From Paeniglutamicibacter kerguelensis (GTDB lineage Bacteria; Actinomycetota; Actinomycetes; Actinomycetales; Micrococcaceae), in the NCBI RefSeq assembly GCF_017876535.1, contig NZ_JAGIOF010000001.1:3658001-3722000 (forward strand): 64,000 bases of DNA, read 5' to 3'. Positions 37,826 to 54,972 of this stretch are shown piece by piece. The stretch's first letter is position 1; each line of letters begins with the position of its first letter. The notes beneath the pieces are model-generated. The model was not told where the DNA came from. It searched no databases and was given only the letters and a program-made list of their open reading frames with translations. Made by a program: the position numbers and the translations under genes.

Positions 37826-37850
37826 GATCAATACCTCAACGGTATTGATC
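37826..37850 (+). promoter_or_regulatory. LysR-type box upstream of the 37903 dehydrogenase
   Basis: Perfect inverted repeat GATCAATACC-TCAAC-GGTATTGATC containing the LysR-box form ATAC-N7-GTAT. The arm end GGTAT (to 37845) is exactly 20 nt from TTGGAC at 37866, the same spacing as at 47401, 46446 (minus strand) and 53553. It lies between the divergent binding-protein and dehydrogenase genes. Confidence 0.8.
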
Positions 37851-37865
37851 CATGCAATCTACGTG

Positions 37866-37896
37866 TTGGACGCGCATCCTTGGCCGTTCCTAGGAT
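37866..37896 (+). promoter_or_regulatory. Predicted LysR-controlled promoter for the dehydrogenase
   Basis: TTGGAC (37866-37871), 19-nt spacer beginning with nnGCATC, TAGGAT (37891-37896), ending 6 nt before the ATG at 37903. Near-identical to the kdgD promoter at 47426-47456. The very short distance to the ATG suggests a leaderless or almost leaderless transcript. Confidence 0.7.
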
Positions 37897-37902
37897 GCAG
37901 GT

Positions 37903-38895
37903 ATGTCAACAGAAACGAGCGCCCTTACCCGGCGCGATCCAAGCCCCATCACCGGGAATGCAATAGTGCGCGTCGGCCCGGTCAACCCGACGGTCGCCCA
38001 GGCGCTCATTGACGACTACGACGCACTGATCCTTCCCGCAGGGGGTCCGGAGCGCGAGGCCTTCCTGGACAATCACGCCGAATCGATTCGCGTGGCGGTC
38101 TGCTCCGGAAAGATCGGCGTTGACACCGAACTCATGAGACACCTGCCAAACCTGGAAGCCATCGTGAACTTCGGCGTCGGCTACGACGCCAGCGATGTCG
38201 CCCAGGCGGCCGAACGCAATATCCCGATCAGCAACACCCCGGATGTGCTCACCGATTGCGTCGCGGACACCGCGCTGGGCCTCTACCTCGAAACCCTGCG
38301 CTCGCTCGGTGCCGCCGAGCGCTTCGTGCGCAACGGCACCTGGGCAACGGGCGTGAACTTCCCGCTGGCCACCCGCGCCAGCGGCAAGCGCGTGGGCATC
38401 CTGGGCTTGGGTCGCATCGGCGCGGCAATCGCCAAGCGGCTCGAGGGCTTCGGGTGCGAAATCCACTATCACAACCGCTCGGAAATCGCGGGCAGTTCAT
38501 ACGCCTACCACTCTTCCGCCGCGGAGCTGGCGGAAGCCACCGATGTGCTGGTCGTCGCCGCAGCGGGCGGTCCGGCGTCGGCCGGGCTGGTCAGCGCCGA
38601 GGTGCTGGAAAAGATCGGCCCGAAGGGCTTCCTGATCAACATTGCCCGCGGCAGCGTCGTTGACGAGCCAGCACTGGTCTCGGCCCTGCAAAACGGCGAA
38701 ATCGCCGGCGCCGGACTGGATGTCTTCACCAACGAGCCTCATGTACCGACCGAACTCCTCGAGCTGGACAACGTGGTCCTGTTGCCGCACCTGGGCAGCG
38801 GCACGCACGAGACTCGCGCCGATATGGCGGCACTCGTGCTGGAAAACCTGCGGAGCTACGTGAACTCGGGCGAGCTCATCACCCCCGTTTCCTAG
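37903..38895 (+). CDS. 2-hydroxyacid dehydrogenase (glyoxylate/hydroxypyruvate reductase-like)
   Basis: A 330-residue NAD(P)-dependent dehydrogenase. Nucleotide-binding motif VGILGLGRIGAAIAK (about residues 165-179), catalytic Arg in NIARGSVVDE (about 246-255), Glu in LDVFTNEPHVP (about 269-279) and His in LLPHLGSGTHE (about 289-299). The pattern resembles GhrB-type hydroxypyruvate/glyoxylate reductases. Its promoter carries the same inverted repeat and core as the aldarate operons about 10 kb downstream, so it should respond to the same LysR regulator. It is followed by a strong intrinsic terminator. Possible role: reducing a 2-oxo or semialdehyde by-product of sugar-acid catabolism. Confidence 0.88.
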   Translation: MSTETSALTRRDPSPITGNAIVRVGPVNPTVAQALIDDYDALILPAGGPEREAFLDNHAESIRVAVCSGKIGVDTELMRHLPNLEAIVNFGVGYDASDVAQAAERNIPISNTPDVLTDCVADTALGLYLETLRSLGAAERFVRNGTWATGVNFPLATRASGKRVGILGLGRIGAAIAKRLEGFGCEIHYHNRSEIAGSSYAYHSSAAELAEATDVLVVAAAGGPASAGLVSAEVLEKIGPKGFLINIARGSVVDEPALVSALQNGEIAGAGLDVFTNEPHVPTELLELDNVVLLPHLGSGTHETRADMAALVLENLRSYVNSGELITPVS

Positions 38896-38980
38896 CCGCC
38901 CAAGGATTCACTCCCAGCACGCCAATGTGGCGACCCGTGGCTACGCGGACGCCCCGCTGGAAGCTTGGCATGCGCGTATT

Positions 38981-39014
38981 CGGCCCACCCGGTTTTCCGG
39001 GTGGGCCGATTTTG
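38981..39014 (+). terminator. Intrinsic terminator of the dehydrogenase gene
   Basis: Perfect 12-bp GC-rich stem (38981-38992 / 38997-39008) with a TTTT loop, followed by ATTTTGC. The best canonical rho-independent terminator in the window, about 85 nt after the stop codon. Confidence 0.85.
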
Positions 39015-39072
39015 CATGCTCCCCCAACGGGAAATACGGCGAATCATCTATCCAAAAGTTCTCCGCCGAACT

Positions 39073-39087
39073 ACTTGTGTTACAAGT
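39073..39087 (+). promoter_or_regulatory. Predicted GntR/FadR-type operator 1
   Basis: ACTTGT-GTT-ACAAGT, a perfect dyad whose core TTGTGTTACAA fits the FadR-subfamily consensus TNGTNNNACNA. Located 69 nt upstream of the galactarate dehydratase gene whose operon encodes a GntR regulator. Confidence 0.65.
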
Positions 39088-39090
39088 TTT

Positions 39091-39109
39091 CAACTTATAC
39101 GATAAGTTG
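39091..39109 (+). promoter_or_regulatory. Predicted GntR-type operator 2
   Basis: CAACTTATACGATAAGTTG, a perfect 19-bp palindrome (8-nt arms, ACG centre), starting 4 nt after operator 1 and 46 nt before the start codon. It contains TATACGAT, which may also serve as the -10, so binding would block transcription. Confidence 0.7.
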
Positions 39110-39155
39110 TGTTCCCCCACACATCCCACCCTCCCCCTAGGAGCAAAGAGTCGCC

Positions 39156-40289
39156 ATGAGCTACACCCCCGACGCCATCCGCCACGTTAAGCTGTCGACC
39201 GCCCGCCTGCCCTTGGCCACTCCCATCTCGGACGCCAAGGTCTTCACCGGGCGCCAGAAGCCGATGACCGAGGTTGTCTTCCTCTTTGCCGAGATCAAGA
39301 CCGAACAGGGCCACGAGGGCCTGGGATTCTCCTACTCGAAGCGCGCCGGCGGGCCGGCACAGTTCGCCCACGCCAAGGAAGTCGCCGAAACCATGATCGG
39401 CGAGGATCCCAATGACATCGCCAAGCTCTACACCAAGCTCCTGTGGGCCGGCGCCTCGGTGGGGCGCTCCGGTGTCGCCACCCAGGCCCTCGCGGCCCTC
39501 GACATTGCCCTCTACGATCTCAAGTCCAAGCGTGCAGGCCTGCCCCTGGCCAAGTTCCTCGGCTCGCACCGCGACTCGGTACGCACCTACAACACCTCCG
39601 GTGGCTTCCTCAACGCGTCGATCTCCGAGGTCAAGGAACGCGCCAGCCAGTCGATCGAAGAGGGAATCGGCGGCATCAAGATCAAGGTTGGACTGCCCGA
39701 TTCCGCCGAGGACCTTCGCCGCGTCGCCGCGGTTCGCGAACACATCGGCCCGGACGTTCCGATGATGGTGGATGCAAACCAGCAATGGGACCGCGCCACC
39801 GCGTTGCGCATGGGCCGCAAGCTCGAGGAATTCGACCTGGTCTGGATCGAGGAGCCTCTCGACGCCTATGACGCCGAGGGCCATGCCGCACTCGCTGCCG
39901 CCCTGGACACTCCGATTGCCACCGGCGAGATGCTCGCCTCCGTGGCCGAGCACGAACGCCTGATTGCCACCCGCGCCTGCGACATCATCCAGCCCGATGC
40001 CCCGCGCATCGGCGGCATCACGCAGTTCCTGCGCCTGTCCACACTGGCCGACCAGGCCGGCCTGGACCTGGCCCCGCACTTCGCCATGGAAATCCACCTG
40101 CACCTCGCCGCCGCATACCCGCGCGAGCCGTGGGTGGAGCACTTCGACTGGCTGGACCCGTTGTTCAATGAGCGCCTCGAGACCAAGGACGGTCGCATGC
40201 TGGTCCCGAACCGCCCGGGACTCGGCTTCACCTTCAGCGACCAGGTCCGCGCCTGGACCACGGACACCGTCGAGTTCGGCCGAGCCTAA
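39156..40289 (+). CDS. Galactarate/L-talarate dehydratase (enolase superfamily)
   Basis: Dehydrates galactarate or L-talarate to 5-dehydro-4-deoxyglucarate. The 377-residue protein closely resembles the Salmonella L-talarate/galactarate dehydratase in pattern. The acid/base KxK is GIKIKVG (Lys at about residues 175 and 177), metal ligands are Asp in DANQQWD (about 205), Glu in IEEPLD (about 232) and Glu in ATGEM (about 258), and the second acid/base His is in LAPHFAMEIHLH (about 307). The YNTSGGFL motif is also present. First gene of an operon with gntR (36-nt gap) and mqo. The product feeds the dehydratase encoded at 47536. Two palindromic operators precede it. Confidence 0.88.
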   Translation: MSYTPDAIRHVKLSTARLPLATPISDAKVFTGRQKPMTEVVFLFAEIKTEQGHEGLGFSYSKRAGGPAQFAHAKEVAETMIGEDPNDIAKLYTKLLWAGASVGRSGVATQALAALDIALYDLKSKRAGLPLAKFLGSHRDSVRTYNTSGGFLNASISEVKERASQSIEEGIGGIKIKVGLPDSAEDLRRVAAVREHIGPDVPMMVDANQQWDRATALRMGRKLEEFDLVWIEEPLDAYDAEGHAALAAALDTPIATGEMLASVAEHERLIATRACDIIQPDAPRIGGITQFLRLSTLADQAGLDLAPHFAMEIHLHLAAAYPREPWVEHFDWLDPLFNERLETKDGRMLVPNRPGLGFTFSDQVRAWTTDTVEFGRA

Positions 40290-40325
40290 GCATCAGACCG
40301 TGGCGCGCGTGAAACGATTCTTCTT

Positions 40326-41030
40326 ATGAAAGCCAACCTGACGACCGAACTGGTCAAGCATCTGCGTGAGCAGATCAGTAGCGGACTCATTGCCCCGGGA
40401 GACAAACTTCCGAGCGAAAATGCACTGATCGCGGAGCACGACGTGTCGCGCACCGTGGTGCGCGAGGCACTGACCAGGCTTCAGGCAGAAGGGTTGGTTC
40501 ATACGCGCCGCGGTGCCGGCAGCTTTGCGCTGACTCCCCCGGCACCCGAGACAGCTGCGCAGGCGCGGGTTCCCCGGACCCTGGCCGAACGCAGGCAACT
40601 GCTCGAGTTCAGGATGGGTTTTGAATCCGAGGCCGCGGCTGCAGCGGCTGGCACGGCAAATACCGAAACACTGCGGAACCTCGATGCGGCCCTGGCGGCA
40701 TTTACCAAGGCAGGAACCAACGCCTCGCTGTCCATGAATTGCGACTTCGAGTTCCACGCCGCCGTTGCCTCGGCGAGCGGCAACCCCTATTTCCTGGATG
40801 CGGTGCAACATTTTGGCCCGGCCATGATTGCCATGCCGCGCCAGCGCCTCGAGTCCCAGGATTCCATCCCCGCCCCGCGTTTGGAGCAAGTGGCGGGCGA
40901 ACACCTCAGCATTCGCAACGCCATCGCCTCGGGCAATGCCATGGCCGCCGCCGCTGCCATGCGCGTGCACCTGGCCAATTCGCTACACCGACTCGAGATC
41001 GAAGCCGGAGTCGCATCCGCCGACGACTGA
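40326..41030 (+). CDS. GntR family regulator (FadR subfamily)
   Basis: A 234-residue regulator. The N-terminal winged helix covers about residues 5-68 (GDKLPSENALIAEHDVSRTV and VREALTRLQAEGLVHTRRG are textbook GntR), followed by an all-helical FCD ligand-binding domain (about 90-220) with likely metal ligands in DFEFHAAVA (about 140) and His residues near EHLSIRNAI and MRVHLANS. It lies 36 nt after the galactarate dehydratase gene and 36 nt before mqo. The tandem palindromes at 39073-39109 are its likely operators, with galactarate or a derivative as inducer (inference). Confidence 0.9.
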   Translation: MKANLTTELVKHLREQISSGLIAPGDKLPSENALIAEHDVSRTVVREALTRLQAEGLVHTRRGAGSFALTPPAPETAAQARVPRTLAERRQLLEFRMGFESEAAAAAAGTANTETLRNLDAALAAFTKAGTNASLSMNCDFEFHAAVASASGNPYFLDAVQHFGPAMIAMPRQRLESQDSIPAPRLEQVAGEHLSIRNAIASGNAMAAAAAMRVHLANSLHRLEIEAGVASADD

Positions 41031-41066
41031 GCGAGCCGGTCTCGCCCCCAAGGTAAGGAATCCTTC

Positions 41067-42548: not shown

Positions 42549-42676
42549 TTCGGGATTTGTAGGTTTCGGTCGGCGAATCTGTTTCAATCCAGTAAGCCCG
42601 TGAGGCTTTGGACGGGAAACCCATAGCCAAGCACCCCAACAACATCCATACGGGCCCCGCCGCCACACAAGACAAA

Positions 42677-42723
42677 GGCCGGGCCGGTCAACACGCCCCC
42701 ATCGGCGGTTGACCGGCCCGGCC
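42677..42723. terminator. Bidirectional terminator between mqo and uspA
   Basis: Perfect 16-bp GC-rich stem, arms 42677-42692 and 42708-42723, loop 15 nt, between two converging transcription units. On the minus strand it is followed by CTTTGTCTTG. The preceding stretch 42549-42676 holds nothing recognised. Confidence 0.8.
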
Positions 42724-42746
42724 TGGACTTTGGGCCCGAAGCGCTT

Positions 42747-43145
42747 CTAGACCTGGTCGGCCTTGACGGCCAGAACCGGGTGTTCGGCCTGCAACAGGAT
42801 GCGCTGGGCATGTGATCCCATGATGAACTTACCAACTTGCGAGCGCTGGCGCAGCCCGATGACAATCAATGAGACGTCATGTTTCTCAGCCAAGTCCAGG
42901 ATCTCCGCGGCGAGGTCGTCGCGGTGGATGGAGTCCAGGACCTTGGCCTTGATGCCGGCGGCCGCGGTGGACTGCTTGATGCGTTCGATGTCCTCCGGGC
43001 TTGCCACCGACTTGTCCACCAGTGCGCCTTCGCGCACCGAATTCACGATCAGCAGTTCCTCGTCGCGAAGCTTGGCTTCGCCAATGGCCGCCCGCACGGC
43101 GGCCTCGCCGACCTTGGTCGGAACGTATCCAACTAGGATGCTCAT
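42747..43145 (-). CDS. Universal stress protein (UspA family)
   Basis: A 132-residue single-domain Usp. It begins MSILVGYVPTKVGEAAVRAA and has the ATP-binding-type motif IGLRQRSQVGKFIMGSHAQR (about residues 97-116), followed by HPVLAVKA. It overlaps the tctA-type gene by 4 nt (ATGA), so it is expressed with the transporter. Small Usp proteins joined to TRAP or tripartite transporters are known and may modulate transport through ATP binding (family knowledge; not shown here). Confidence 0.9.
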   Translation of the reverse strand: MSILVGYVPTKVGEAAVRAAIGEAKLRDEELLIVNSVREGALVDKSVASPEDIERIKQSTAAAGIKAKVLDSIHRDDLAAEILDLAEKHDVSLIVIGLRQRSQVGKFIMGSHAQRILLQAEHPVLAVKADQV

Positions 43146-44671
43146 ACTTTTTCCTCAACCTTGGTGTCGGACAAGAGGGTGTTTGCCGTCTTGCGCTTGC
43201 TGACCACTGTCTTGATCATTGGCCATACCGCAACGATCACAAAAACAACCAGCAACGTGCCGGAGATCGGCCGGGTCAAGAACCCTGTCGGATCGCCTTC
43301 GAGCACCAGCAACGAGCGACGCAGGCTTGATTCGAGCAGGCTACCCAGCACGAAGGCCAGCACCAGCGGGCCGGGTTCGAAACCGAACTTCTTCATCAGG
43401 TAGCCCAGAGCGCCGAAGAGCACCACGAGCATGACATCGAACATCGAGTTGCGGATGGTGTAGGCACCGAGCATGGTGATCAGCGCGGTGATCGGAGCCA
43501 GGATGGCGGCACGGATTCGCAGGATCTTCACGAACAGGCCAACCAGCGGGATGGACATGATCAGCAGCAGGATGTTGCCGATGTACATCGAGTTCACCAC
43601 GCCCCAGAAGAGCTCGGGTTCCTCGGTGATCAGCTGCGGACCCGGGGTCACACCCTGGATGAGCAGCGCACCGAAGATGATGGCCATCGTCGCATTTGCC
43701 GGGATGCCCAGCGTCAGCAGCGGGATGAAGGAGCTGGTGGCCGCCGCGTTATTTGCGGTTTCCGGTCCTGCGACACCTTCGATGGCGCCCTTGCCGAACC
43801 GTGAGGGATCCTTGGCACGCTTCTTCTCCACGGCGTAGGAGGCCAGCGATGAAATCGTTGCGCCACCACCAGGCAGGATGCCCAGGAAGAAGCCGAGCAC
43901 GGAGCCGCGGCCGATGGCGCCGGAAGCCTGCTTCAGGTCCTTGCGTGAGGGCCAGACGTTGGCCACGGCCATGGGAGCCGATGCGGCGCGGTGACGTTCC
44001 TCCAGGTTGTAGAGGATCTCGCCGACACCGAACAGGCCCATGGCGATCGGCACGAAGTCGATGCCGTCGGCCAGTGACAGGTTGCCGAACGTGAAGCGCT
44101 CGGCACCGGTGAACACGTCGCGGCCGATCGTGGCCAGGAACAGGCCGATGGCCGCGGCGATCAGCGCCTTGATCTTGGAGCCGCCGGAGATGGTGGCAAC
44201 CAGCAAGATGCCCAGCAGCGCCAGTGCCGTGTATTCGGGCGGACCGAAGTCCAGGGCGAAGCCCGCCACCACCGGGGCCAGGAAGGTCAGGCCGACGATG
44301 GCGATGGTGCCACCAATGAAGGAACCAATGGCGGCGATGCCCAAGGCGGTTCCCGCCTTGCCCTGCTTGGCCAACACATAACCGTCAAAAACCGTCACCA
44401 CGGAACTCGCTTCACCCGGGATGCGCAGCAGCACCGAGGTAATGGTTCCGCCGTATTGGGCACCGTAGAAGATGCCGGCGAGCATGATGATCGCGGTGAC
44501 GGGTTCCACGTTGTAGGTCAGGGGCAGCAAGATGGCGATGGTGGCCGCCGGGCCCAGGCCCGGAAGTACGCCGATCAACATGCCAATCAGCACGCCGAAC
44601 AGGCAGTACAGGAGATTTGTGGGGTCAAGAACTACGCCGAAGCCGTCCATGACCGGCTGAAAGAAATCCAT
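43142..44671 (-). CDS. tctA: Tripartite tricarboxylate transporter, large permease (TctA)
   Basis: A 509-residue integral membrane protein with about 11-12 helices. TctA marks are GVLIGMLIGVLPGLGPAATI (about residues 23-42), YGAQYGGTITSVLLRIPGEA (about 69-88) and, in the second half, GFFLGILPGGGATISSLASY-like sequence around residue 260. The operon order tctC-tctB-tctA-usp is standard. Characterised members move citrate or other carboxylates with Na+ or H+. Co-regulation with aldarate catabolic genes by a shared promoter type makes glucarate or galactarate a good candidate substrate here. Confidence 0.93.
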   Translation of the reverse strand: MDFFQPVMDGFGVVLDPTNLLYCLFGVLIGMLIGVLPGLGPAATIAILLPLTYNVEPVTAIIMLAGIFYGAQYGGTITSVLLRIPGEASSVVTVFDGYVLAKQGKAGTALGIAAIGSFIGGTIAIVGLTFLAPVVAGFALDFGPPEYTALALLGILLVATISGGSKIKALIAAAIGLFLATIGRDVFTGAERFTFGNLSLADGIDFVPIAMGLFGVGEILYNLEERHRAASAPMAVANVWPSRKDLKQASGAIGRGSVLGFFLGILPGGGATISSLASYAVEKKRAKDPSRFGKGAIEGVAGPETANNAAATSSFIPLLTLGIPANATMAIIFGALLIQGVTPGPQLITEEPELFWGVVNSMYIGNILLLIMSIPLVGLFVKILRIRAAILAPITALITMLGAYTIRNSMFDVMLVVLFGALGYLMKKFGFEPGPLVLAFVLGSLLESSLRRSLLVLEGDPTGFLTRPISGTLLVVFVIVAVWPMIKTVVSKRKTANTLLSDTKVEEKV

Positions 44672-44695
44672 GCCGTTTACCTTTGGATCTGCGAC

Positions 44696-45241
44696 TTAGA
44701 AGAGTCGGGGGATGGTGGTGCCGAGTGCGGCGATGAAGATTCCGTAGAACGCCGCGACGATCACGACCGAATAGACGGCGGCGGAGCGCCACCGTTCACC
44801 GCCGAGCCACCGCATCCAGATGAAGCACAGCAGGATCGAGGGAATCTCGAAACCGATCACCGGCATCAACAGCACCATGCCGACGAGCGTTGCGAACCCG
44901 ATGGCCGCGTACCAGGAGTTGTTCGAGAACTTTTCGCCGTCCGTGCCACCGGTGCGTCCGATCACGGCTTGGACGCCGGACAGCACGGCAACGATGAGGC
45001 TGACGATGAACGGCCACATGCCCGGCTTCGGTTCGGCCGGCGTTCCCAATCCCAATTGAAGGGAAAGCAATACCCCTGCAAGGCCAAGGCCCAGCACCAC
45101 CAGGGACGAGACGAGGTTGGCCACCGGCCCTGCGGCCTCGGGCGCCTCGGCGGCCCACTGGGCTGCCAGCTGCTCGGGAGTGAGGATCTCTTCCTCGTCG
45201 ACCAGGATCGATTCCGGGTGCGGCTCTTGTTTGGCTCGCAT
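44696..45241 (-). CDS. tctB: Tripartite tricarboxylate transporter, small permease (TctB)
   Basis: A 181-residue membrane protein with four predicted helices: about residues 41-62, 72-90, 112-130 and 150-178. The acidic N-terminus (HPESILVDEEEILTPEQLAA) is cytoplasmic. ATG at 45241 is chosen for GAAGGAAG 6 nt upstream; the nine-residue extension upstream has no ribosome site. It lies 66 nt downstream of tctC and 24 nt upstream of tctA. Confidence 0.88.
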   Translation of the reverse strand: MRAKQEPHPESILVDEEEILTPEQLAAQWAAEAPEAAGPVANLVSSLVVLGLGLAGVLLSLQLGLGTPAEPKPGMWPFIVSLIVAVLSGVQAVIGRTGGTDGEKFSNNSWYAAIGFATLVGMVLLMPVIGFEIPSILLCFIWMRWLGGERWRSAAVYSVVIVAAFYGIFIAALGTTIPRLF

Positions 45242-45307
45242 GGCGTGCTTCCTTCGTGACTCGCGCACACCTGTGGATGGCGCTTGGGGATTGGGAACGG
45301 GCTGAGA

Positions 45308-46309
45308 CTACTTGGAGGCCAGCGAGATGTTGTGTTCGGCGGTCAGCGCCTTGTACTTGGCGGCCAACGCGTTCCACTCGGTGACAACTTCCTCGCCCGA
45401 GATTTCCTTCGGGGTCAGCAGGTTCTGCTTGTTGAAGGCCTTGTAGGAATCGCTCGCCACGGCCGCCTTGATCGAGTCAACCAGTGCGGACTTGGCTTCG
45501 GCGCTCAGGCCCTTCGGGGCCGCAATCACACGGTACTGCGAAACGGGGACGTCGTATCCGGCCTCGACAGCGGTTGGAACATCCGGAAGGAATTCATTGC
45601 GCTCGGAAGAGAAGACAACCACCGGAACCACGGTGCCGGCATCGATCTGCGGTTTGGCCTCACCCAACTGGATGGTGGAAACCTGAACCTGGTTGCCCAT
45701 GACCGCGGTCAAGGCAGGAGAACCGGAGTCGAACGGAACGGTGGTGCCCTTGATGCCGGCCTGGGCCAGCAGCAATTCCTGGGCGAGCTGTGAACCCGTG
45801 CCAACACCCGTGGTGCCAAAGGTCAGCTTGGATGCGCTGGCCTTCAAGTCGTCAACCGACTTGATGCCGGACTTCGTGCTGGCGACCATCACGTAGTCAT
45901 CCTGGGACAGGCCCATGAGGACATCGAGCTTGTCCAGGCTCACTGCTTCGGCTTCCGAGACGGCCAGCGGGGTGATGGTGATCAGGGAGGCGTTGAGCAG
46001 GACTAGGTTCTGCCCATCCGCCTTCATGCCCGCGACTTCCTGGGTGGCCAGAGCGCCGTTGGCACCGGGCTTGTTGACGACAGGGAGCGCCACGCCAAGC
46101 TTTTCCGCCATGCCTTCGGCCGCTGCGCGGGCGATCAGGTCGGTAGACCCACCCGGGGCCTGACCCACGGTGAGGGTCACCGGCCCGCTGGGGAAGGCTC
46201 CGTCAGCGGCAGCTCCGGCGCCAACATTTCCTCCGCAGGCCGTCAGCGAAAGGGCAGCGGTGGCGGCGGCAAGCGACAGCATGGCACGTCGTGTGAAACG
46301 GTTCTTCAT
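45308..46309 (-). CDS. tctC: Tripartite tricarboxylate transporter, binding lipoprotein (TctC)
   Basis: A 333-residue solute-binding protein. Signal peptide MKNRFTRRAMLSLAAATAAL with lipobox LTAC places the lipidated Cys at residue 25. Family marks: FPSGPVTLTVGQAPGGSTDL (about 38-57), NKPGANGALATQEVAG (about 79-94) and FGTTGVGTGSQLAQELLL (about 164-181). First gene of the tctCBA-usp operon. Its promoter region on the minus strand has the conserved box-20 nt-TTGGAC architecture, shared with the divergent lysR gene. Confidence 0.92.
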   Translation of the reverse strand: MKNRFTRRAMLSLAAATAALSLTACGGNVGAGAAADGAFPSGPVTLTVGQAPGGSTDLIARAAAEGMAEKLGVALPVVNKPGANGALATQEVAGMKADGQNLVLLNASLITITPLAVSEAEAVSLDKLDVLMGLSQDDYVMVASTKSGIKSVDDLKASASKLTFGTTGVGTGSQLAQELLLAQAGIKGTTVPFDSGSPALTAVMGNQVQVSTIQLGEAKPQIDAGTVVPVVVFSSERNEFLPDVPTAVEAGYDVPVSQYRVIAAPKGLSAEAKSALVDSIKAAVASDSYKAFNKQNLLTPKEISGEEVVTEWNALAAKYKALTAEHNISLASK

Positions 46310-46391
46310 TGCTAGTTCTCCTTGTTGGCGATACGTGCTGGCCGGGGAGTCCCCTGCGAGTGAGTCACAACACGTTTTTTACTTCTGCTTG

Positions 46392-46421
46392 AGCCTAGAA
46401 ATAGTTATGATGCTTGTCCAA
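46392..46421 (-). promoter_or_regulatory. Predicted LysR-controlled promoter of tctCBA
   Basis: Read on the minus strand: TTGGAC (complement of 46416-46421), 18-nt spacer starting AAGCATC, TAGGCT (complement of 46392-46397). Matches the core of the promoters at 37866, 47426 and 53574. Confidence 0.7.
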
Positions 46422-46440
46422 CCCCATAAATGCATGGAAT

Positions 46441-46457
46441 GATTCCCGAAAGGTATC
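46441..46457. promoter_or_regulatory. LysR-type box between tctC and lysR
   Basis: GATTCC-CGAAA-GGTATC, an imperfect version (one mismatch) of the GATACC-N5-GGTATC repeat seen at 47390. On the minus strand the arm GGAAT ends exactly 20 nt before TTGGAC of the tctC promoter. It overlaps the ribosome site of the lysR gene, so it could also mediate autorepression. Confidence 0.7.
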
Positions 46458-46459
46458 AA

Positions 46460-47347
46460 TTGTTCACCTTGGATCAAGCCCGAAGTTTTGTAGCCGTCGC
46501 CGAAGAGCTGCACTTCGGCCGCGCCGCCGAACGCCTGAACATGACCCAGCCCCCGCTGAGCCGGCAAATCCAGAAGCTCGAGCGCAGCGTCGGGGTTGAG
46601 CTGCTCGAACGCGACAACCGCAAGGTCAGCCTCACCGCCGCCGGGCACGCTTTTCTCATCGATGCCAGGCGGCTGGTGATTTCGGCCGAACGCGCCCCGC
46701 TGAACGCGCGACGCATTGCCTCGGGGCAGTTCGGGGAACTGCGCATCGGGTTCACCGCGGCTTCGGGCTTCAGCCTGCTCGGTCCCCTGCTGTCCGAAAT
46801 TTCGACGCAGCTGCCCAATGTGCATCTGGAACTCTTTGAAATGGTGACCGGGGAACAGATCACGGCGTTGCAGGACGGGGACATAGATCTGGGGCTGGCC
46901 AGGCCGCCTTTCGATGAAAATATCCTTGAATCACAACTGCTCTTCTCCGAATCCCTGTACATTGCGGTGCCCACCGGGCACCGTCTGGATCTGCTCCCCC
47001 GCGAGATCGTTGTCGAAGATCTGGCAGGTGAATCATTAATCATGCACTCACCAACCAAGGCCCGCTATTTCTATGACTTGGTGGTACGGCAGATCGATAT
47101 CGAGCACCAGAACGTTGTCCATTCGGTAAGCCAGATCCTGACGATGATTGCGCTGGTCGCGGCCGGGCGCGGCATCGCCTTTGTGCCCGAAAGCGCCAAA
47201 CTGCTCGGGGTCGAGGGCGTGCGTTACCTGCGGCTTGATGACATTGCGGAGGACGCCGTGGAGTTGCACGCGATCTGGAACCGGGACACCCGGAATCCTG
47301 CGCTGGCCAAACTCGCCCAGATCGTGCGCGGGGCCATGCAGGCCTAG
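46460..47347 (+). CDS. LysR family regulator of the aldarate/tct region
   Basis: A 295-residue LysR-type regulator: winged helix at about residues 1-60 (FVAVAEELHFGRAAERLNMT, QPPLSRQIQKLE), effector-binding domain from about 85. TTG at 46460 is preferred: GAAAGG lies 5-6 nt upstream and the resulting FTLDQARSFVAVAEELHFG start aligns with the paralogue that begins FSLIQLESFVAVAEELHFG at 53536. ATG codons at 46430 and 46439 are alternatives. Divergent from tctCBA and followed by the kdgD operon; boxes flank it on both sides, and a third lies at 37826. Confidence 0.88.
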   Translation: MFTLDQARSFVAVAEELHFGRAAERLNMTQPPLSRQIQKLERSVGVELLERDNRKVSLTAAGHAFLIDARRLVISAERAPLNARRIASGQFGELRIGFTAASGFSLLGPLLSEISTQLPNVHLELFEMVTGEQITALQDGDIDLGLARPPFDENILESQLLFSESLYIAVPTGHRLDLLPREIVVEDLAGESLIMHSPTKARYFYDLVVRQIDIEHQNVVHSVSQILTMIALVAAGRGIAFVPESAKLLGVEGVRYLRLDDIAEDAVELHAIWNRDTRNPALAKLAQIVRGAMQA

Positions 47348-47389
47348 ATCTTGGCCATCCGGGCCGTTGCCGTGTTTCCCGAAACTGGC

Positions 47390-47406
47390 GATACCCGACG
47401 GGTATC
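47390..47406 (+). promoter_or_regulatory. LysR-type box upstream of kdgD
   Basis: GATACCCGACGGGTATC, a perfect 17-bp palindrome with the ATAC-N7-GTAT LysR box. The GGTAT arm ends 20 nt before TTGGAC at 47426. Confidence 0.8.
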
Positions 47407-47425
47407 AAACAATACAAATATGGGC

Positions 47426-47456
47426 TTGGACAGGCATCGTTGGTCGTCCCTAGGCT
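47426..47456 (+). promoter_or_regulatory. Predicted LysR-controlled promoter of the kdgD operon
   Basis: TTGGAC (47426-47431), 19-nt spacer starting AGGCATC, TAGGCT (47451-47456). From TTGGAC onward it matches the 37866 promoter at most positions. About 80 nt of leader follow before the ATG at 47536. Confidence 0.7.
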
Positions 47457-47535
47457 GAAGCCAACGAACAACTTCATCGTCCACTGCCACATATCCACCT
47501 TGTCGTGGAGGCGCCCCAGCTTTAGGAGTATCCCC

Positions 47536-48474
47536 ATGGCCACCTACACCCCAGCCGAACTTGCCGCCAAGCTCAAGGACGGACTGCTCTCCTTCCCGGT
47601 GACGGCATTCGATGCAAACCTGGAAATCGACGAAGCCGCATACCGCAGCCACCTGGACTGGCAGTCAAGCTTCGGCGTCGCGGGCCTCTTCGCCGCCGGC
47701 GGCACCGGCGAGGGCTTCACCCTCACCCCCGAGGAAGCCTCCCGCGTGGTGCGTATGGCAGTCGAGGAAGCGGGCTCGCGCGTTCCGGTGCTCGGTTCGG
47801 CCGGCGGCTCCACCAAGCAGGCCATCCAGAACGCCCAGGATTCGGAGGCCGCGGGCGCCGAGGGCATCCTGCTGCTGCCGCCGTACCTGACCGAATGCGA
47901 CCAGGAGGGCCTGTTCCAGCACGTCTCGGCCGTCTGCGCTTCAACCTCCACCGGCGTCATCGTCTACAACCGCGCCAATGCCATCTACTCGGCCGACACC
48001 GTGGCCCGCCTGGCCGACACCCACGAAAACTTCATTGGATTCAAGGACGCCACCGGCGACATCGAGCACCTGACCAAGGTCTACACGAAGAACGGCGACC
48101 GCCTCTTCTACCTCGGCGGCCTGCCCACCGCCGAGACCTTCGCCCTGCCGCTGCTGCAGCTGGGCATGAGCACCTACTCCTCGGCCATGTACAACTTCGT
48201 TCCGGAGTTTGCCCTGGACTTCTACAAGGACGTGCGCAACCAGGACCACGCAGCCGTCACCGAGAAGCTCAAGCGCTTCGTCCTGCCGTACCTGGACATC
48301 CGCGACCGCGTCAGCGGCTACGGCGTCTCCATCGTCAAGGGCGGCCTGAAGGCCATCGGCCGCGACGCCGGCTCGGTACGCCCGCCGCTGCAGAACCTCA
48401 CCGAGGCGGACCTGGCCGACCTGGGCGCACTGATCCAGAAGGCCGGACTGATGCCGGCCCCCGCCACCGTCTAA
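47536..48474 (+). CDS. kdgD: 5-dehydro-4-deoxyglucarate dehydratase
   Basis: Decarboxylating dehydratase of the DHDPS/NAL aldolase superfamily that converts 5-dehydro-4-deoxyglucarate to 2-oxoglutarate semialdehyde. The 312-residue protein has the substrate loop GGTGEGFTLTPEE (about residues 55-67), the catalytic Tyr in VIVYNRANA (about 145) and the Schiff-base Lys in FIGFKDATG (about 170). AGGAG precedes the ATG at 47536. It starts the operon kdgD-aldehyde dehydrogenase-glucarate dehydratase, which supports this assignment over other DHDPS-like aldolases. Confidence 0.9.
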   Translation: MATYTPAELAAKLKDGLLSFPVTAFDANLEIDEAAYRSHLDWQSSFGVAGLFAAGGTGEGFTLTPEEASRVVRMAVEEAGSRVPVLGSAGGSTKQAIQNAQDSEAAGAEGILLLPPYLTECDQEGLFQHVSAVCASTSTGVIVYNRANAIYSADTVARLADTHENFIGFKDATGDIEHLTKVYTKNGDRLFYLGGLPTAETFALPLLQLGMSTYSSAMYNFVPEFALDFYKDVRNQDHAAVTEKLKRFVLPYLDIRDRVSGYGVSIVKGGLKAIGRDAGSVRPPLQNLTEADLADLGALIQKAGLMPAPATV

Positions 48475-48537
48475 GGAACGCAGCAGGGACGCACCAACAT
48501 CACGACCGATACACCCACCCGCGACGCAGGAGCAGCA

Positions 48538-50145
48538 ATGTCCACGGATACCCAGCAACTCACCGGCCAGTCCATCCTGGCCGGGATCACCACCCCAGGC
48601 AACGGGGGCGAGGTCCGGGGTTTCAACCCCGCCACCAACCAGGCGCTCGACCCGGCGTACAGCCTGATCGACACCGATCAGCTGCAGCTGGCAACGGCCG
48701 CCGCCGAGGACGCCTTCGAGTCCTTCCGTTCCCTTGACCCGGAAACCCACGCCGCCTTCCTCGAGGCAATTGCCGAGAACATCGAGGCCGTGGGAACCGA
48801 GCTGGTTGCCCGGGCCATGGCAGAGACCGGGCTTCCCGAGGCACGGCTCACCGGCGAGCGCGGGCGCACCTGCAACCAGCTGCGGCTCTTTGCCCAGGTG
48901 GTTCGGGCGGGCGACCACCACGGGGTGCGGATCGATCCGGCCTTGCCGGAACGCACTCCGATGCCACGGGTGGACATCCGCCAGCGCAAGATCCCGGTGG
49001 GTCCGGTCGCGGTGTTCGGTGCGTCCAACTTCCCCCTCGCCTTCTCCACCGCCGGCGGCGACACCGCCTCGGCACTGGCCGCCGGCTGCCCGGTGGTCTT
49101 CAAGGCCCACAACGCCCACCCGGGCACCAGCGAGATCGTCGGCCGGGCCATCACCCAGGCCATCACGGATGCGAACCTGCACCCGGGCATCTTCTCCCTC
49201 CTCTACGGACCCGGCGCAAGCATCGGCCAGGCACTGGTGGCCGACCCGCGCATCAAGGCCGTGGGCTTCACCGGTTCCCGTTCCGGCGGCACCGCGCTGA
49301 TGGCTTCCGCGGCGGCCCGCCCGGAGCCGATCCCGGTCTACGCGGAAATGAGCTCCATCAACCCGGTCATCTTCTTCGCCGGGGCACTGGCCGAGGACGC
49401 CGCCGGCCACGCCAAGGCGTACCTTGGCTCGGTCACCGGTTCCAGCGGCCAGCTGTGCACCGCCCCGGGATTGGTCTTCGTCCCGGCAGGGGAATCCGGC
49501 GACGCCTTCGCCGCCGCGCTTCGCGCCGAGACCGGCAACGCCTCCGGGCAGACCATGCTCACCGAGGGCATCTACAACTCCTGGGTCCAGGGTGTCCACA
49601 ACCTTGGCGCCCAGCCCGGAGTCGAGCTCCTGGGCCGCGGCACCAAGGGTGCAGGCGAAAACGCCCCGGCCCCGTCCATCTTCTCCACCGGTGTCGAGCA
49701 GCTGCTGGAGAACCCGGTGTTGCACGAGGAAATCTTCGGCGCCGCCTCGCTGGTCATCCGCTACGAGGACGTCGCCGACCTTGCAACCGCCCTGTCCAAG
49801 CTGGAGGGCCAGCTCACCGCGACCCTGCAGCTGAACGACTCCGACCACGAAGCCGTCGCCGCGGTGCTGCCCATCCTGGAACGCAAGGCCGGACGCATCT
49901 TGGTCAACGGCTGGCCCACCGGCGTCGAGGTCGGCCACGCCATGGTGCACGGCGGACCGTTCCCGGCAACCTCTGACACCCGCACCACCTCGGTGGGCAC
50001 GCTGGCCATCGAACGGTTCCTGCGCCCGGTGGCCTACCAAAACATCCCCGACGGTTTGCTGCCGGCCCCGCTGCAGCGGGCCAACCCCTGGAAGCTGACC
50101 CGCCGCATCGACGGCACCCTGAAGAACGCCGGAGACCAAGCATGA
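48538..50145 (+). CDS. 2-oxoglutarate semialdehyde dehydrogenase
   Basis: A 535-residue aldehyde dehydrogenase that probably oxidises 2-oxoglutarate semialdehyde to 2-oxoglutarate using NADP+. The long form and sequences such as [19 protein letters not shown] (about residues 152-170) and [13 protein letters not shown] (about 243-255) match the KGSADH type III branch. The catalytic Cys is in [11 protein letters not shown] (about residue 307); the general-base Glu is in [10 protein letters not shown] (about 268). It lies 63 nt after kdgD and its stop overlaps the glucarate dehydratase start (ATGA at 50142). Confidence 0.9.
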
Positions 50146-51473
50146 GCGCAACACAGCCAACCATCGCAGCCATCGAGGTCGTCCCGGTTGCCGGGCACGA
50201 CTCGATGCTGCTGAACCTCTCCGGGGCCCACGGCCCGTTCTTCACCCGCAACATCACCATCATCACCGACTCCGAGGGCCGCACCGGCCTCGGCGAGGTG
50301 CCCGGCGGGGAGCCCATCCGCCGCACCATCGAGGAAGCCGGCGAGCTGCTCATCGGTGCGCCGGTGGCACGGTTCCGCTCGCTGCTGCGTGCCGTGGCAA
50401 CCCGGTTCGCGGACCGGGATGCCGGCGGCCGCGGCGCCCAGACCTTCGACCTGCGCACCACGGTGCACGCGGTCACCGCCATCGAATCGGCACTGCTGGA
50501 TTTGCACGGCCAGTTCCTCGGTGTTCCCGTCGCGGAACTGCTGGGCGAGGGCCAGCAGCGCGATGCGGTTCCGATGCTCGGTTACCTCTTCTACGTGGGC
50601 AACCCCGATGACACCGACCTGCCCTACCTGCGCGAGCCAAACGGTCGGGACGACTGGGAACGCGTCCGTCGCGAAGAGGCCATGACCCCGGAGGCCATCG
50701 TCAGGCTGGCCGAGGCCGCCCAGGCACGCTACGGGTTCAAGGATTTCAAGCTCAAGGGCGGCGTGCAGTCCGGGGACCTGGAAGTCGATGCCGTCATCGC
50801 CCTGAAGCAGCGCTTCCCCGAGGCACGCATCACCCTGGATCCCAACGGCGGCTGGCTGCTGAAGGACGCGATCCGTCTGGGTAAGCGCATGGCCGGAATC
50901 GTGGCCTACGCGGAGGACCCGTGCGGCGCCGAGGGCAAGTTCTCCGGGCGCGAGGTCGTGGCCGAGTTCCGTCGGGCCACCGGCCTGCAGACGGCCACCA
51001 ACATGATCGCCACCGACTGGCGCGAAATGTCCCACGCGGTGCGCACCAATGCCGTGGACATCCCTCTGGCGGACCCGCACTTCTGGACCATGGCCGGTTC
51101 AGTGCGCGTGGCACAGCTCTGTGACGAGTTCGGACTCACTTGGGGGTCGCACTCGAACAACCACTTCGACATCTCTCTGGCCATGTTCACGCAGGTCGGT
51201 GCCGCGGCTCCGGGCGAGATCACGGCGCTGGACACGCACTGGATCTGGCAGGACGGCCAGGGGCTGACCGAAGAGCCGCTGCTGATCCGCGACGGCGAAA
51301 TCAAGGTTCCCGCACGTGCCGGCCTGGGTGTCAGTCTGAACCGCGAACGCCTCCAGGAGGCCCACGAGCTCTACCTGGAGCACGGACTGGGCTCGCGCGA
51401 CGACGCGGCATCCATGCAGTACCTGATTCCGGGCTGGGAATTCAACGCCAAGAGCCCGGCTCTGGTGCGCTAG
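50142..51473 (+). CDS. gudD: Glucarate dehydratase
   Basis: Dehydrates D-glucarate (and L-idarate) to 5-dehydro-4-deoxyglucarate. The 443-residue protein has the GlucD N-terminus [20 protein letters not shown] (about residues 18-37), acid/base Lys in DFKLKGG (about 202), metal ligands in DPNGGW (about 233) and AEDPC (about 260), TNM (about 287) and the His/Asp pair region HSNNHFDIS (about 338). Length and motifs match E. coli GudD. It is the last gene of the kdgD operon, coupled by ATGA. Confidence 0.92.
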
Positions 51474-51506
51474 CGGTGCCATTGGAAAGCGCCGCCTAAA
51501 TACCGG

Positions 51507-51544
51507 GGACGGTGGAGGTATTGAACGGAACACCCCCACCGTCC
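51507..51544 (+). terminator. Possible terminator after gudD
   Basis: GGACGGTGG (51507-51515) pairs with CCACCGTCC (51536-51544) around a 20-nt loop; weakly T-rich sequence follows. It lies 33 nt after the gudD stop and before the AEC permease gene. Confidence 0.5.
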
Positions 51545-51615
51545 TCTTCCATGCTATGCCTCTCCGCGGACACCGTTCGCCATGGCGGTACTCAAGAGCA
51601 ATACGGGAAGGCCAC

Positions 51616-52557
51616 ATGCAGGGAGTGCTCCAGGGATTCACGATAGTCCTGATACTGATCGGCATCGGATTGGCCACCGCGCGCTTCCTGCCGCGCAAGC
51701 GCGAGAGCATTGCCACCGGGTTGACCCCGCTGATCTACTACATCACCAATCCGGCCCTGATGTTCACGCTGCTGGCGGATACGGACCTGCGCTCCGTGAT
51801 CGGCGTGTACACGCCGATAGCACTCATCACCGCGGCATTGACGGGATCGCTTTATGCGGTGTCCGCCAAGCTGTTGTTCAAGGTGCCCACGGCCCGGCTT
51901 CCGGGTGCGGCCATGGCCACCAGCTACGTCAATGCCGGCAACATCGGCGTGCCGTTGGCGCTTTACGCCGTGGGCAACACCAACCCCGTGGTGTCCGTAC
52001 TCATTGCCCAGCTCTTGGTGATCGCACCGATCTACCTGTGTTTCTTCGCGTTGGCGGCCCGGGCTACGGGCAGCGGGCAAAAAGATGCCCCGTTGGGCAA
52101 GACGATCCTTCGCTCGATCGCCAATCCGGTCACCATCGCCACGTTTGTGGGCGCCGTCTTCGCGGGCTTGGACATCCACCTGCCGGAGGTCATCCACATA
52201 CCGATTGAGATGCTGGGCCAGGCGTCGATCCCGCTGCTGTTGATGGCGTTCGGAATGTCCCTCTTTGGGCAGCGCCCCCTGGCCGAGAAATCGCTGCGCG
52301 GCGAGGTGTTGCTGGCTTCCGCCTTCAAGATGCTCTTCATGCCGCTGGTGGCCTGGGTGTTCGCGGCCTTCGTCTTCGGTTTGCAGGGGACGGCCCTTCT
52401 CGGAGTGGTGATCATGGCGGCTCTTCCCACGGCACAGAACGTGCTCCTCTTTTCACAGCAATTCCGGCTGGAAACGGCCGTGCCCCGTGAAGTGATCCTG
52501 TCCAGCACCCTACTGGCGATCCCCGTGACGCTTTTGATTACATTTTTCCTGGGCTGA
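51616..52557 (+). CDS. AEC family permease (auxin efflux carrier type)
   Basis: A 313-residue membrane protein with about ten helices in two inverted halves. Typical AEC features are the early IGIGLATARFLPRKRE (about residues 15-30), SYVNAGNIGVPLAL (about 104-117) with the conserved Asn-Gly pair, and MAALPTAQNVLLFSQQF (about 274-290) near the C-terminus. AEC proteins transport malate, malonate, auxin and similar acids. Start at 51616 has GGGAAGG upstream; the frame to 51556 is an extension. It sits between the gud operon and a LysR gene and may export or import an acid of the pathway. Confidence 0.88.
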   Translation: MQGVLQGFTIVLILIGIGLATARFLPRKRESIATGLTPLIYYITNPALMFTLLADTDLRSVIGVYTPIALITAALTGSLYAVSAKLLFKVPTARLPGAAMATSYVNAGNIGVPLALYAVGNTNPVVSVLIAQLLVIAPIYLCFFALAARATGSGQKDAPLGKTILRSIANPVTIATFVGAVFAGLDIHLPEVIHIPIEMLGQASIPLLLMAFGMSLFGQRPLAEKSLRGEVLLASAFKMLFMPLVAWVFAAFVFGLQGTALLGVVIMAALPTAQNVLLFSQQFRLETAVPREVILSSTLLAIPVTLLITFFLG

Positions 52558-52597
52558 GCCGCGGCCAAACGCGAAGATGGGGCCGATGTCCCACTCG

Positions 52598-53536
52598 CTA
52601 CTTCCGGGAAGAAACCGGCTGGTGGTCCTCGGTGTCCAGGTCGATCGACTCAAGGAAGATCTTCCGCAGCATCTCGGCAGCGGGATTCGCGGACGCCTCG
52701 TCCCAGGCCAGGTACATGTCCGAGTGGTTCAGGTCCGATAGCCCGGTGGGCCCGGTGATTTCCTCGAAGACCACGCCGCGCGGGGCAAATTCCATGGCTG
52801 TTGCCGGAACCAGGGTAACCCCGAGGCCGGCGGCAACGAGCGCCAGGAGCGCAGGAATCTGGCTGGCTATCTGGGCGATCTCGGGCCTGGCACCCACCGA
52901 GTCGAAGAGCCGCAGCACGAGGTCGTAGAAGTACCGGGCCTCCCCCGTCGAATACATCATCAGTGGCAAGCCGGCAATTTCCTTGATGAAAACTCCCTTG
53001 CCCGTGGCCAAGTCGTGGCCCTGCGGAAGCCCGACAATCAAACGGTCCTTCTTGATGAGCTGGGTCTGCACTCCGGCACGCGTGACGATGGGGCGCAGCA
53101 GCCCCATGTCGATCGAGCCCTTGCTCAGCGCGTCCAGCTGCTCAACCGAAACCGCCTCTCGCAGCACCAGGGTGACGTGCGGCAGGTGCTTTGAGGCCTG
53201 GGCCAGCAGTTGCGGCAGCACGGCCTGCCCGGCGACCGCAGTATAGCCGATCACCACGGTTCCGGCGTCCCCCGTGGCCACCCGGGAAACCTCGAGGCTT
53301 GTCTTGGCGCTCAGGTCCAGGATGCGGCGTGCACTGGGCAACAGGACCTGGCCGGCAGCGGTAAGTTCCACCCGCCGGGAATTGCGCACGAACAGCTGCG
53401 CCTGGAGCTCGCGTTCCAAAAGCTGGATCTGCCGACTCAACGGGGGCTGGGTCATGTTCAACCGTTCCGCGGCCGCCCCGAAGTGCAGCTCCTCGGCCAC
53501 GGCAACAAAGGATTCGAGCTGGATCAGCGAAAACAT
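52598..53536 (-). CDS. LysR family regulator (second)
   Basis: A 312-residue LysR-type regulator, paralogous in its HTH to the one at 46460 (FVAVAEELHFGAAAERLNMT, QPPLSRQIQLLE). The effector domain spans about residues 88-295. ATG at 53536 has AAGGAGTG upstream. It is divergent from the glucarate-dehydratase-like gene at 53639; the repeat ATTCA-N5-TGAAT right at its start codon and the shared promoter core show that it probably controls that operon and itself. The changed box bases imply a different specificity from its paralogue. Confidence 0.9.
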   Translation of the reverse strand: MFSLIQLESFVAVAEELHFGAAAERLNMTQPPLSRQIQLLERELQAQLFVRNSRRVELTAAGQVLLPSARRILDLSAKTSLEVSRVATGDAGTVVIGYTAVAGQAVLPQLLAQASKHLPHVTLVLREAVSVEQLDALSKGSIDMGLLRPIVTRAGVQTQLIKKDRLIVGLPQGHDLATGKGVFIKEIAGLPLMMYSTGEARYFYDLVLRLFDSVGARPEIAQIASQIPALLALVAAGLGVTLVPATAMEFAPRGVVFEEITGPTGLSDLNHSDMYLAWDEASANPAAEMLRKIFLESIDLDTEDHQPVSSRK

Positions 53537-53538
53537 CA

Positions 53539-53553
53539 ATTCACTCCTTGAAT
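53539..53553 (+). promoter_or_regulatory. LysR-type box, variant sequence
   Basis: ATTCA-CTCCT-TGAAT, perfect inverted repeat with the T-N11-A LysR form, ending exactly 20 nt before TTGGAC at 53574. Same position as the ATACC-N5-GGTAT boxes but with different arm bases. It overlaps the leader and ribosome site of the divergent lysR gene. Confidence 0.65.
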
Positions 53554-53573
53554 GATTGGTTGCCTTTTTTGGC

Positions 53574-53604
53574 TTGGACATGCATCAATGCAGCCTCTTA
53601 GGGT
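53574..53604 (+). promoter_or_regulatory. Predicted LysR-controlled promoter of the second dehydratase operon
   Basis: TTGGAC (53574-53579), 19-nt spacer starting ATGCATC, TAGGGT (53599-53604), 34 nt before the ATG at 53639. Confidence 0.65.
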
Positions 53605-54967: not shown

Positions 54968-54972
54968 CGGCA

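Follow-up and report, generated by a model that had tools for sequence, protein, structure and literature searches.

LysR-type transcriptional regulators (LTTRs) constitute the largest family of prokaryotic regulators (PMC4730206). In the sliding-dimer scheme, as presented in the part of that paper drawn on here, they act through sites named RBS, ABS' and ABS'', a dyad near -65 being combined with two alternative downstream sites. According to this DntR paper of 2016, a conserved ABS'' motif was still to be deduced for LTTRs (PMC4730206). BenM and CatM use three ATAC-N7-GTAT sites, of which, according to the sections of the paper used here, sites 1 and 3 are occupied without effector and sites 1 and 2 on induction (PMC6628147). 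Galactarate and glucarate are the substrates of the GguR regulon of Halomonas, which, in the portion of the description considered here, comprises a TctABC transporter and a GntR-family regulator (PMC5507952). The present analysis concerns a stretch of 64,000 nucleotides from Paeniglutamicibacter kerguelensis (contig NZ_JAGIOF010000001.1, positions 3,658,001 to 3,722,000; the window), in which four promoter sites of one layout lie among aldarate (glucarate/galactarate) genes and two regulator genes, lysR1 and lysR2. The four sites are probably LysR-controlled sigma-70-type promoters of one aldarate regulon; the assignment of promoters to LysR1 or LysR2, the inducer and the sliding of a dimer are predictions from the sequence.

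Four exact copies of the 13-mer TTGGACNNGCATC lie in the window, at 37866 (+), 46421 (-), 47426 (+) and 53574 (+). At 4/4 sites a 15-bp T-N11-A dyad stands exactly 20 nt ahead of TTGGAC, which is followed by GCATC and then by TAGGNT; from the first site to the last, the spacer between TTGGAC and TAGGNT measures 19, 18, 19 and 19 nt. All four dyads are divergent to or near a regulator gene, the arrangement looked for in an LTTR-controlled promoter: the tctC site is divergent to lysR1, the glucD2 site is divergent to lysR2, the kdgD site directly follows lysR1, and the site of a D-2-hydroxyacid dehydrogenase gene is found about 8-8.5 kb from lysR1. The promoter elements are the following.

37831..37845, + strand: dyad ATACC-N5-GGTAT of the dehydrogenase promoter, predicted recognition site
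37852..37855, + strand: ATGC half-site of the dehydrogenase promoter, 21 bp past the left arm, retained in orthologs L149-L154
37866..37871, + strand: TTGGAC, putative -35 hexamer of the dehydrogenase promoter
37874..37878, + strand: GCATC, LysR-like half-site right after the -35 of the dehydrogenase promoter
37891..37896, + strand: -10 hexamer TAGGAT of the dehydrogenase promoter, start codon 6 nt on
46392..46397, - strand: -10 hexamer TAGGCT of tctCBA, 18-nt spacer
46409..46413, - strand: GCATC half-site of the tctC promoter
46416..46421, - strand: -35 hexamer TTGGAC of the tctC promoter
46432..46435, - strand: ATGC half-site of the tctC promoter (AT at offsets 21-22 in 45/45 distinct tctC sites)
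46442..46456, - strand: dyad ATACC-N5-GGAAT of the tctC promoter, predicted LysR site, lying 3 nt ahead of the start codon of lysR1
47391..47405, + strand: dyad ATACC-N5-GGTAT of the kdgD promoter, predicted LysR site
47412..47415, + strand: ATAC half-site of the kdgD promoter
47426..47431, + strand: -35 hexamer TTGGAC of the kdgD promoter
47434..47438, + strand: GCATC half-site of the kdgD promoter
47451..47456, + strand: -10 hexamer TAGGCT of the kdgD promoter
53539..53553, + strand: dyad ATTCA-N5-TGAAT of the glucD2 promoter, predicted LysR site; the opposite strand reads as the lysR2 Shine-Dalgarno sequence
53574..53579, + strand: -35 hexamer TTGGAC of the glucD2 promoter
53582..53586, + strand: GCATC half-site of the glucD2 promoter
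53599..53604, + strand: -10 hexamer TAGGGT of the glucD2 promoter

An earlier note on this DNA had described four sites with dyad, 20 nt, core, 18-19 nt and TAGGNT, and this pattern is confirmed at each of them. Its range for the tctC site, 46392-46446, cuts off the dyad at 46442-46456. Of the three boxes it called ATACC/GGTAT, two are exact and the tctC arms are imperfect (ATACC/GGAAT, 4/5 pairs). The core is indeed shared, but it appears to be two elements rather than a single unit, namely the TTGGAC -35 hexamer and GCATC, a LysR-like half-site resembling the dyad arms. It had also missed a conserved ATRC half-site that all three LysR1-type promoters carry 21 bp after the left arm of the dyad.

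Base composition predicts about 0.026 exact copies of TTGGACNNGCATC in the window. The whole 4.8-Mb genome, of which the window is a part, contains six; the two beyond the window, at 3922650 and 4064365, lack both the dyad and TAGGNT. Genome-wide, the 13-mer shows hardly any enrichment on its own (six copies vs four for a reversed control pattern); what makes the sites significant is that they cluster, carry the dyad and keep a fixed spacing. A count of 13-mers with two mismatches was set aside as evidence for the window, since it was uninformative (26 found vs 23 expected). A sequence-only profile of 68 positions (68 nt), R1, was built from 141 distinct sites; its training sites match it by construction, whereas none of the matches outside the family had been used for training. 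On the home genome R1 finds the four window sites at E 1.7e-17, 1.9e-14, 1.1e-11 and 2.5e-10, and the fifth match has E 0.615. The claim that the arrangement is unlikely by chance is thus borne out, and the scatter over random genome positions that the earlier note had named as evidence to the contrary was not seen: only four strong matches exist and all belong to this locus.

The layout is retained well beyond this genome. Named relatives in Paeniglutamicibacter carry LysR1 proteins that are 91-93% identical. At a threshold of E 1e-55 or better, which admits LysR2 as well, homologs of LysR1 were found in 81/295 family genomes and 16/32 genera. R1 likewise matches in 81/295 family genomes; 77 genomes have LysR and promoter, four LysR only, four the promoter only and 210 neither. 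Matches were obtained in 34/248 genomes of the order, covering eight families including its own, and in 7/396 genomes of a phylum-wide draw, four of them outside the order. Loci outside the order (families f21 and f22) match at L283-L286 and L289, with E from 1.8e-8 to 8.7e-4. All 58 named loci fetched by similarity to LysR1 contain at least one match, among them loci of Glutamicibacter, Arthrobacter, Kocuria, Pseudarthrobacter, Brachybacterium, Promicromonospora, Brevibacterium and Kribbella.

The sites are also specific for certain genes. In the loci around LysR homologs, upstream regions were scanned by choosing core and -10 blind to the dyad and then scoring an AT...AT dyad plus core; 11 rows were dropped as too short, and start distances above 345 were excluded as edge artefacts (L090 for GlucD2, L131 for KGSADH, five TGalD and two MQO rows). 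Dyad plus core were found upstream of 75/78 kdgD genes (including four KdgD paralogs, 38-39% identical, that adjoin LysR2 homologs), 48/51 tctC genes, with two more in which the first arm base is changed, and 22/32 glucD2 genes. In the same loci no site was found upstream of GlucD1 (0/57), KGSADH (0/74), the permease (0/49), GntR (0/24) or TGalD (0/23), and HADH2 had one in 2/29 cases. When 51 R1 matches were inspected in 40 regions picked by the analyst from listings, 43 lay ahead of KdgD, TctC, GlucD2 or TGalD homologs and two ahead of distant hydroxyacid dehydrogenase homologs (29-30% identity). This confinement to pathway genes, seen also in the home genome, where 4/4 strong matches fall in this locus, supports the earlier proposal of an aldarate regulon of LysR type. 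To assess the geometry, dyads lying 4 to 59 nt away were scored, where TTRGAC was readable, with a profile trained on the other gene classes; the best distance was 20 nt in 152/152 scorable promoters (165 examined). Of the 141 sites, 115 have a 19-nt and 26 an 18-nt spacer to the -10, and the commonest -10 is TAGGCT (38), TANNNT being present in all of them because site selection required it.

Some sites precede other genes. At L072, L076, L108, L111, L113 and L117, the gene behind the LysR2-type site is not glucD2 but a KdgD paralog (38-39% identity) or a hydroxyacid dehydrogenase homolog. TGalD homologs lie behind a site in L213 and, as a distant homolog, in L209. Genes that look transporter-like by eye from their translations follow sites at L218:3180-3237, L221:3742-3787, L198:11248-11300 and L201:3332-3385, which suggests alternative uptake systems in the regulon. 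A full-length orphan site (L193:3511-3578, genome G020) has none of the queried aldarate-gene homologs nearby, and its genome has no LysR1 homolog at E 1e-55.

The internal structure of the core was resolved with a half-site profile trained on the dyad arms only and slid along the remaining promoter, with 200 column permutations as control. The kdgD class comprises 71 sites including four LysR2-adjacent paralog sites, and 67 in a recount without these. In the 71, a strong inverted half-site, GCATC, ends at offset 46 (counted from the left end of the dyad) with a mean of 8.35 bits, the arms themselves reaching 8.8 and 9.8; it exceeds 2 bits in 99% of the sites and 0/200 permutations are as good. 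A direct half-site, ATRC, is found at offset 21 with 1.64 bits. Both are recovered in the tctC class, again with 0/200 permutations as good for GCATC, and the glucD2 class shows GCATC only. At base resolution, the 67 kdgD sites have A in 67 and T in 66 at offsets 21-22 and C in 60 at 24, and G in 66, A in 67 and T in 66 at offsets 43, 45 and 46. The left arm is 21 bp from ATRC (two helical turns) and the right arm 32 bp from GCAT (three helical turns). The -35 hexamer, at offsets 35-40, lies within a 15-bp span, 32-46, that has GCAT as its right half.

A mechanism for these promoters can be proposed. LysR1 would most likely control kdgD, tctCBA and the hydroxyacid dehydrogenase gene, and LysR2 the divergent glucD2 operon. 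The high-affinity dyad ATNC-N7-GNAT, centred near -65, would anchor a LysR tetramer, whose second dimer, with no inducer present, would sit on the downstream GNAT half-site (span about 32-46) and cover the -35. In the presence of the inducer, presumably an aldarate or a pathway intermediate, this dimer would slide one turn upstream to ATRC (span about 21-35), which would free the -35 and permit activation. That a LysR sliding-dimer switch can be read directly in these promoters, as two half-sites that each form the good half of one of two overlapping 15-bp dyads with a common centre and one turn apart, flank the -35 such that one position blocks it and the other frees it, and hold their register across the order, is a possibility against which we would nevertheless lean slightly. 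Since a dyad covers the translation start region of both lysR genes, the arrangement also suggests autoregulation of lysR1 and lysR2.

Several observations weigh against the regulon or the switch. The ATRC signal is the weaker one and was matched by 6/200 permutations in the kdgD class and 24/200 in the tctC class; in the glucD2 class GCATC is less clear and is reached by 8/200. LysR2-type promoters are devoid of ATRC and have [GT]TGC or similar in its place, with A in 0/26. As the promoters were picked partly by their likeness to TTGGACNNGCATC, the presence of GCATC is partly built in, although its likeness to the arms is not. The promoter sequences are related by descent and their counts represent non-independent events. 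Four family genomes have LysR but no promoter match and four the reverse, 10/32 glucD2 genes have no site by the upstream-scan rule, and six of the 51 inspected matches precede other or no recognised genes. An upstream scan also found no LysR site at the talarate/galactarate dehydratase gene of the window.

The earlier note had let a gene about 10 kb away join the regulon. This holds for the dehydrogenase gene, the distance being nearer 8 kb. At E 1e-90 or better, its orthologs occur in 13/59 relatives (home genome included), 10/13 having the site at the same distance, and two further orthologs with a site (loci L060 and L071) bring the count to 12/15. In five of these 12 sites (L060, L071, L156, L157 and L158), which belong to other genera, the core or the arms are looser; most sites combine ATRCC/GGTAT arms with ATGC at offset 21 and are hence of LysR1 type. 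The start codon follows 6 nt after the -10 in 11/12 orthologs with a site and 7 nt in L156; of the two orthologs with an 18-nt spacer, L071 has its start codon shifted along with the -10 and L156 does not. The conserved distance of 6 nt fits the assignment of the -10 and predicts a leaderless mRNA.

The two regulators are 43% identical, and a branch separates them in a 132-protein tree (a quick method, with long branches). A few exceptions aside, the recognition-helix stretch reads TQPPLSRQIQ-K-LE for LysR1 and TQPPLSRQIQ-L/M-LE for LysR2; the variable position is K or R in LysR1-type proteins, the outlier L140 apart, and L or M in LysR2. It aligns with BenM residue 38, which is discussed, in the part of the paper used here, as base-contacting and class-distinguishing (PMC6628147). 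The 26 distinct sites next to lysR2 have T (9), G (10), A (6) or C (1) at arm base 3 and A (15), G (6), T (3) or C (2) at arm base 5, whereas the 67 kdgD sites have a purine at base 3 in 65 and C at base 5 in 40. The arm difference between the classes is a tendency and no rule. Offset 21 is A in 67/67 kdgD sites vs 0/26 lysR2-adjacent sites, and offset 31 is T in 26/26 lysR2-adjacent sites vs 4/67 kdgD sites; since these positions separate the classes, two promoter classes are supported. The earlier note was right that one geometry serves both paralogs, as the 20-nt dyad distance, the core and TAGGNT are found beside either gene. Its claim of different arm specificity stands as a class tendency but not as proven by the box arms, because the LysR2 box overlaps the lysR2 ribosome-binding site: the Shine-Dalgarno sequence AAGGAG lies on the other strand at offsets 5-10 of the ATTCA/TGAAT box and fixes part of it. 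Paralog specificity deduced from the arms alone was dropped for this reason. A rule linking arm base 5 to residue 38, for which BenM/CatM offer a precedent, is not claimed, as base 5 varies in both classes. A second arm specificity for LysR2 is plausible.

Other explanations of the promoter layout can be considered. GCATC could be part of an extended -35 or a sigma-specific element, with the dyad as the sole operator, and its 2-nt gap after the -35 hexamer in nearly all aligned sites would suit this. The element nevertheless fits the dyad-arm profile nearly as well as the arms do in the kdgD and tctC sites, inverted and 32 bp from the right arm, and the rest of the genome contains the 13-mer at close to background level (two of the six copies having no dyad), unlike a general sigma element; this explanation is accordingly considered improbable. 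Far less credible still is the idea that the four window promoters resemble each other as remnants of a recent duplication, free of functional constraint. All four do lie within 16 kb, and the tctC and kdgD sites share 18/35 non-motif positions, but pairwise identity amounts to 19-22/23 at motif positions vs 7-18/35 elsewhere and the layout persists in eight families of the order.

A more serious competitor, if still an unlikely one, holds that LysR1 alone controls all four promoters or that both LysR proteins share one specificity. The recognition-helix stretches of the window pair are identical save one position, ATNC-N7-GNAT is common to both box types, and the lysR2 Shine-Dalgarno has shaped the LysR2 box. 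Moreover, 12/45 LysR1-type tctC boxes have A at the third right-arm position, as do most lysR2-adjacent boxes, and in four lysR2-adjacent sites arm base 3 is G and offset 12 is T, as in LysR1-type sites. The stretch ahead of TTGGAC, however, splits the classes at the two offsets given above, and the proteins themselves part in the tree. Control by both regulators, each at its own promoters, is the reading retained here.

The aldarate pathway is clear from the gene set of the window.

37903..38895, + strand: D-2-hydroxyacid dehydrogenase gene, regulon member with a site in 12/15 orthologs
43142..46309, - strand: tctC-tctB-tctA, tripartite tricarboxylate-type transporter (Pfam PF03401, PF07331, PF01970), presumed operon
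46460..47347, + strand: lysR1, LysR-type regulator with TTG start (Pfam HTH_1 and LysR_substrate; ortholog starts)
47536..52557, + strand: kdgD - aldehyde dehydrogenase - glucarate dehydratase - Mem_trans permease, probably one operon judging by the spacing
52598..53536, - strand: lysR2, LysR-type regulator (Pfam)
53639..55944, + strand: glucD2 (glucarate dehydratase-like, enolase superfamily) and a second 2-hydroxyacid dehydrogenase gene

Both LysR proteins exceed the Pfam cut-offs for PF00126 and PF03466. The kdgD product is a 5-dehydro-4-deoxyglucarate dehydratase (382 bits vs a cut-off of 374), and the glucarate dehydratase GlucD1 scores 780 bits, slightly below the curated cut-off of 828.7. 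The glucD2 product, at 266 bits, is far below the glucarate dehydratase cut-off; this enzyme and the second hydroxyacid dehydrogenase are putative members of the pathway. The names glucD2 and KGSADH are labels of this report, the KGSADH gene being Pfam Aldedh. The listed open reading frame of lysR1 begins at ATG 46430, inside the divergent promoter, and ortholog starts align with TTG 46460, which is most likely the true start; the tctC dyad then falls just ahead of the lysR1 start codon. Between the dehydrogenase gene and the tct genes, an L-talarate/galactarate dehydratase gene (689 bits, NF047820) is followed by a GntR/FCD regulator gene (39156-41027).

LTTR activation sites are usually hard to read, and 141 distinct promoters from several gene classes and two paralogous regulators now provide a base-resolved layout. 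With this layout a regulon for glucarate and galactarate is defined in Arthrobacter-like bacteria and further afield, and the profile can serve its annotation. If the proposal is true, the promoter set may supply an ABS''-type activation-site motif for one LTTR subfamily; the layout makes the sliding-dimer idea accessible to simple tests at single sites, and the natural promoters could be used for aldarate biosensors.

No description of this regulon was found in the open-licence PMC literature by titles and abstract starts, subscription journals lying outside this coverage; within that literature the regulon would be new, its mechanistic kind being already known. As far as the cited parts of the papers on comparable systems go, the GguR regulon shares the substrates and the transporter family under one local regulator. 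GguR, however, belongs to the GntR family, whereas the candidate regulators here are of the LysR family, and GntR genes like that at 40326 have no site (0/24). The promoters would share with the LTTR sliding-dimer scheme a dyad near -65 that is followed by two alternative sites; here, unlike there, a pair of conserved half-sites can be read from the sequence, and sliding is predicted from their placement. The best solved relatives of LysR1 by sequence are BenM and CatM, which at benA and catB of Acinetobacter combine a site 1 dyad, ATAC-N7-GTAT, with two weaker downstream sites. Of this three-site layout the dyad is present here, together with one half of each downstream site in LysR1-type promoters and only the half-site after the -35 in LysR2-type promoters. 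In contrast to BenM and CatM, the present regulon comprises other genes and probably responds to another inducer, and its downstream sites keep one good half-site each, in a register that is kept over an actinobacterial order.

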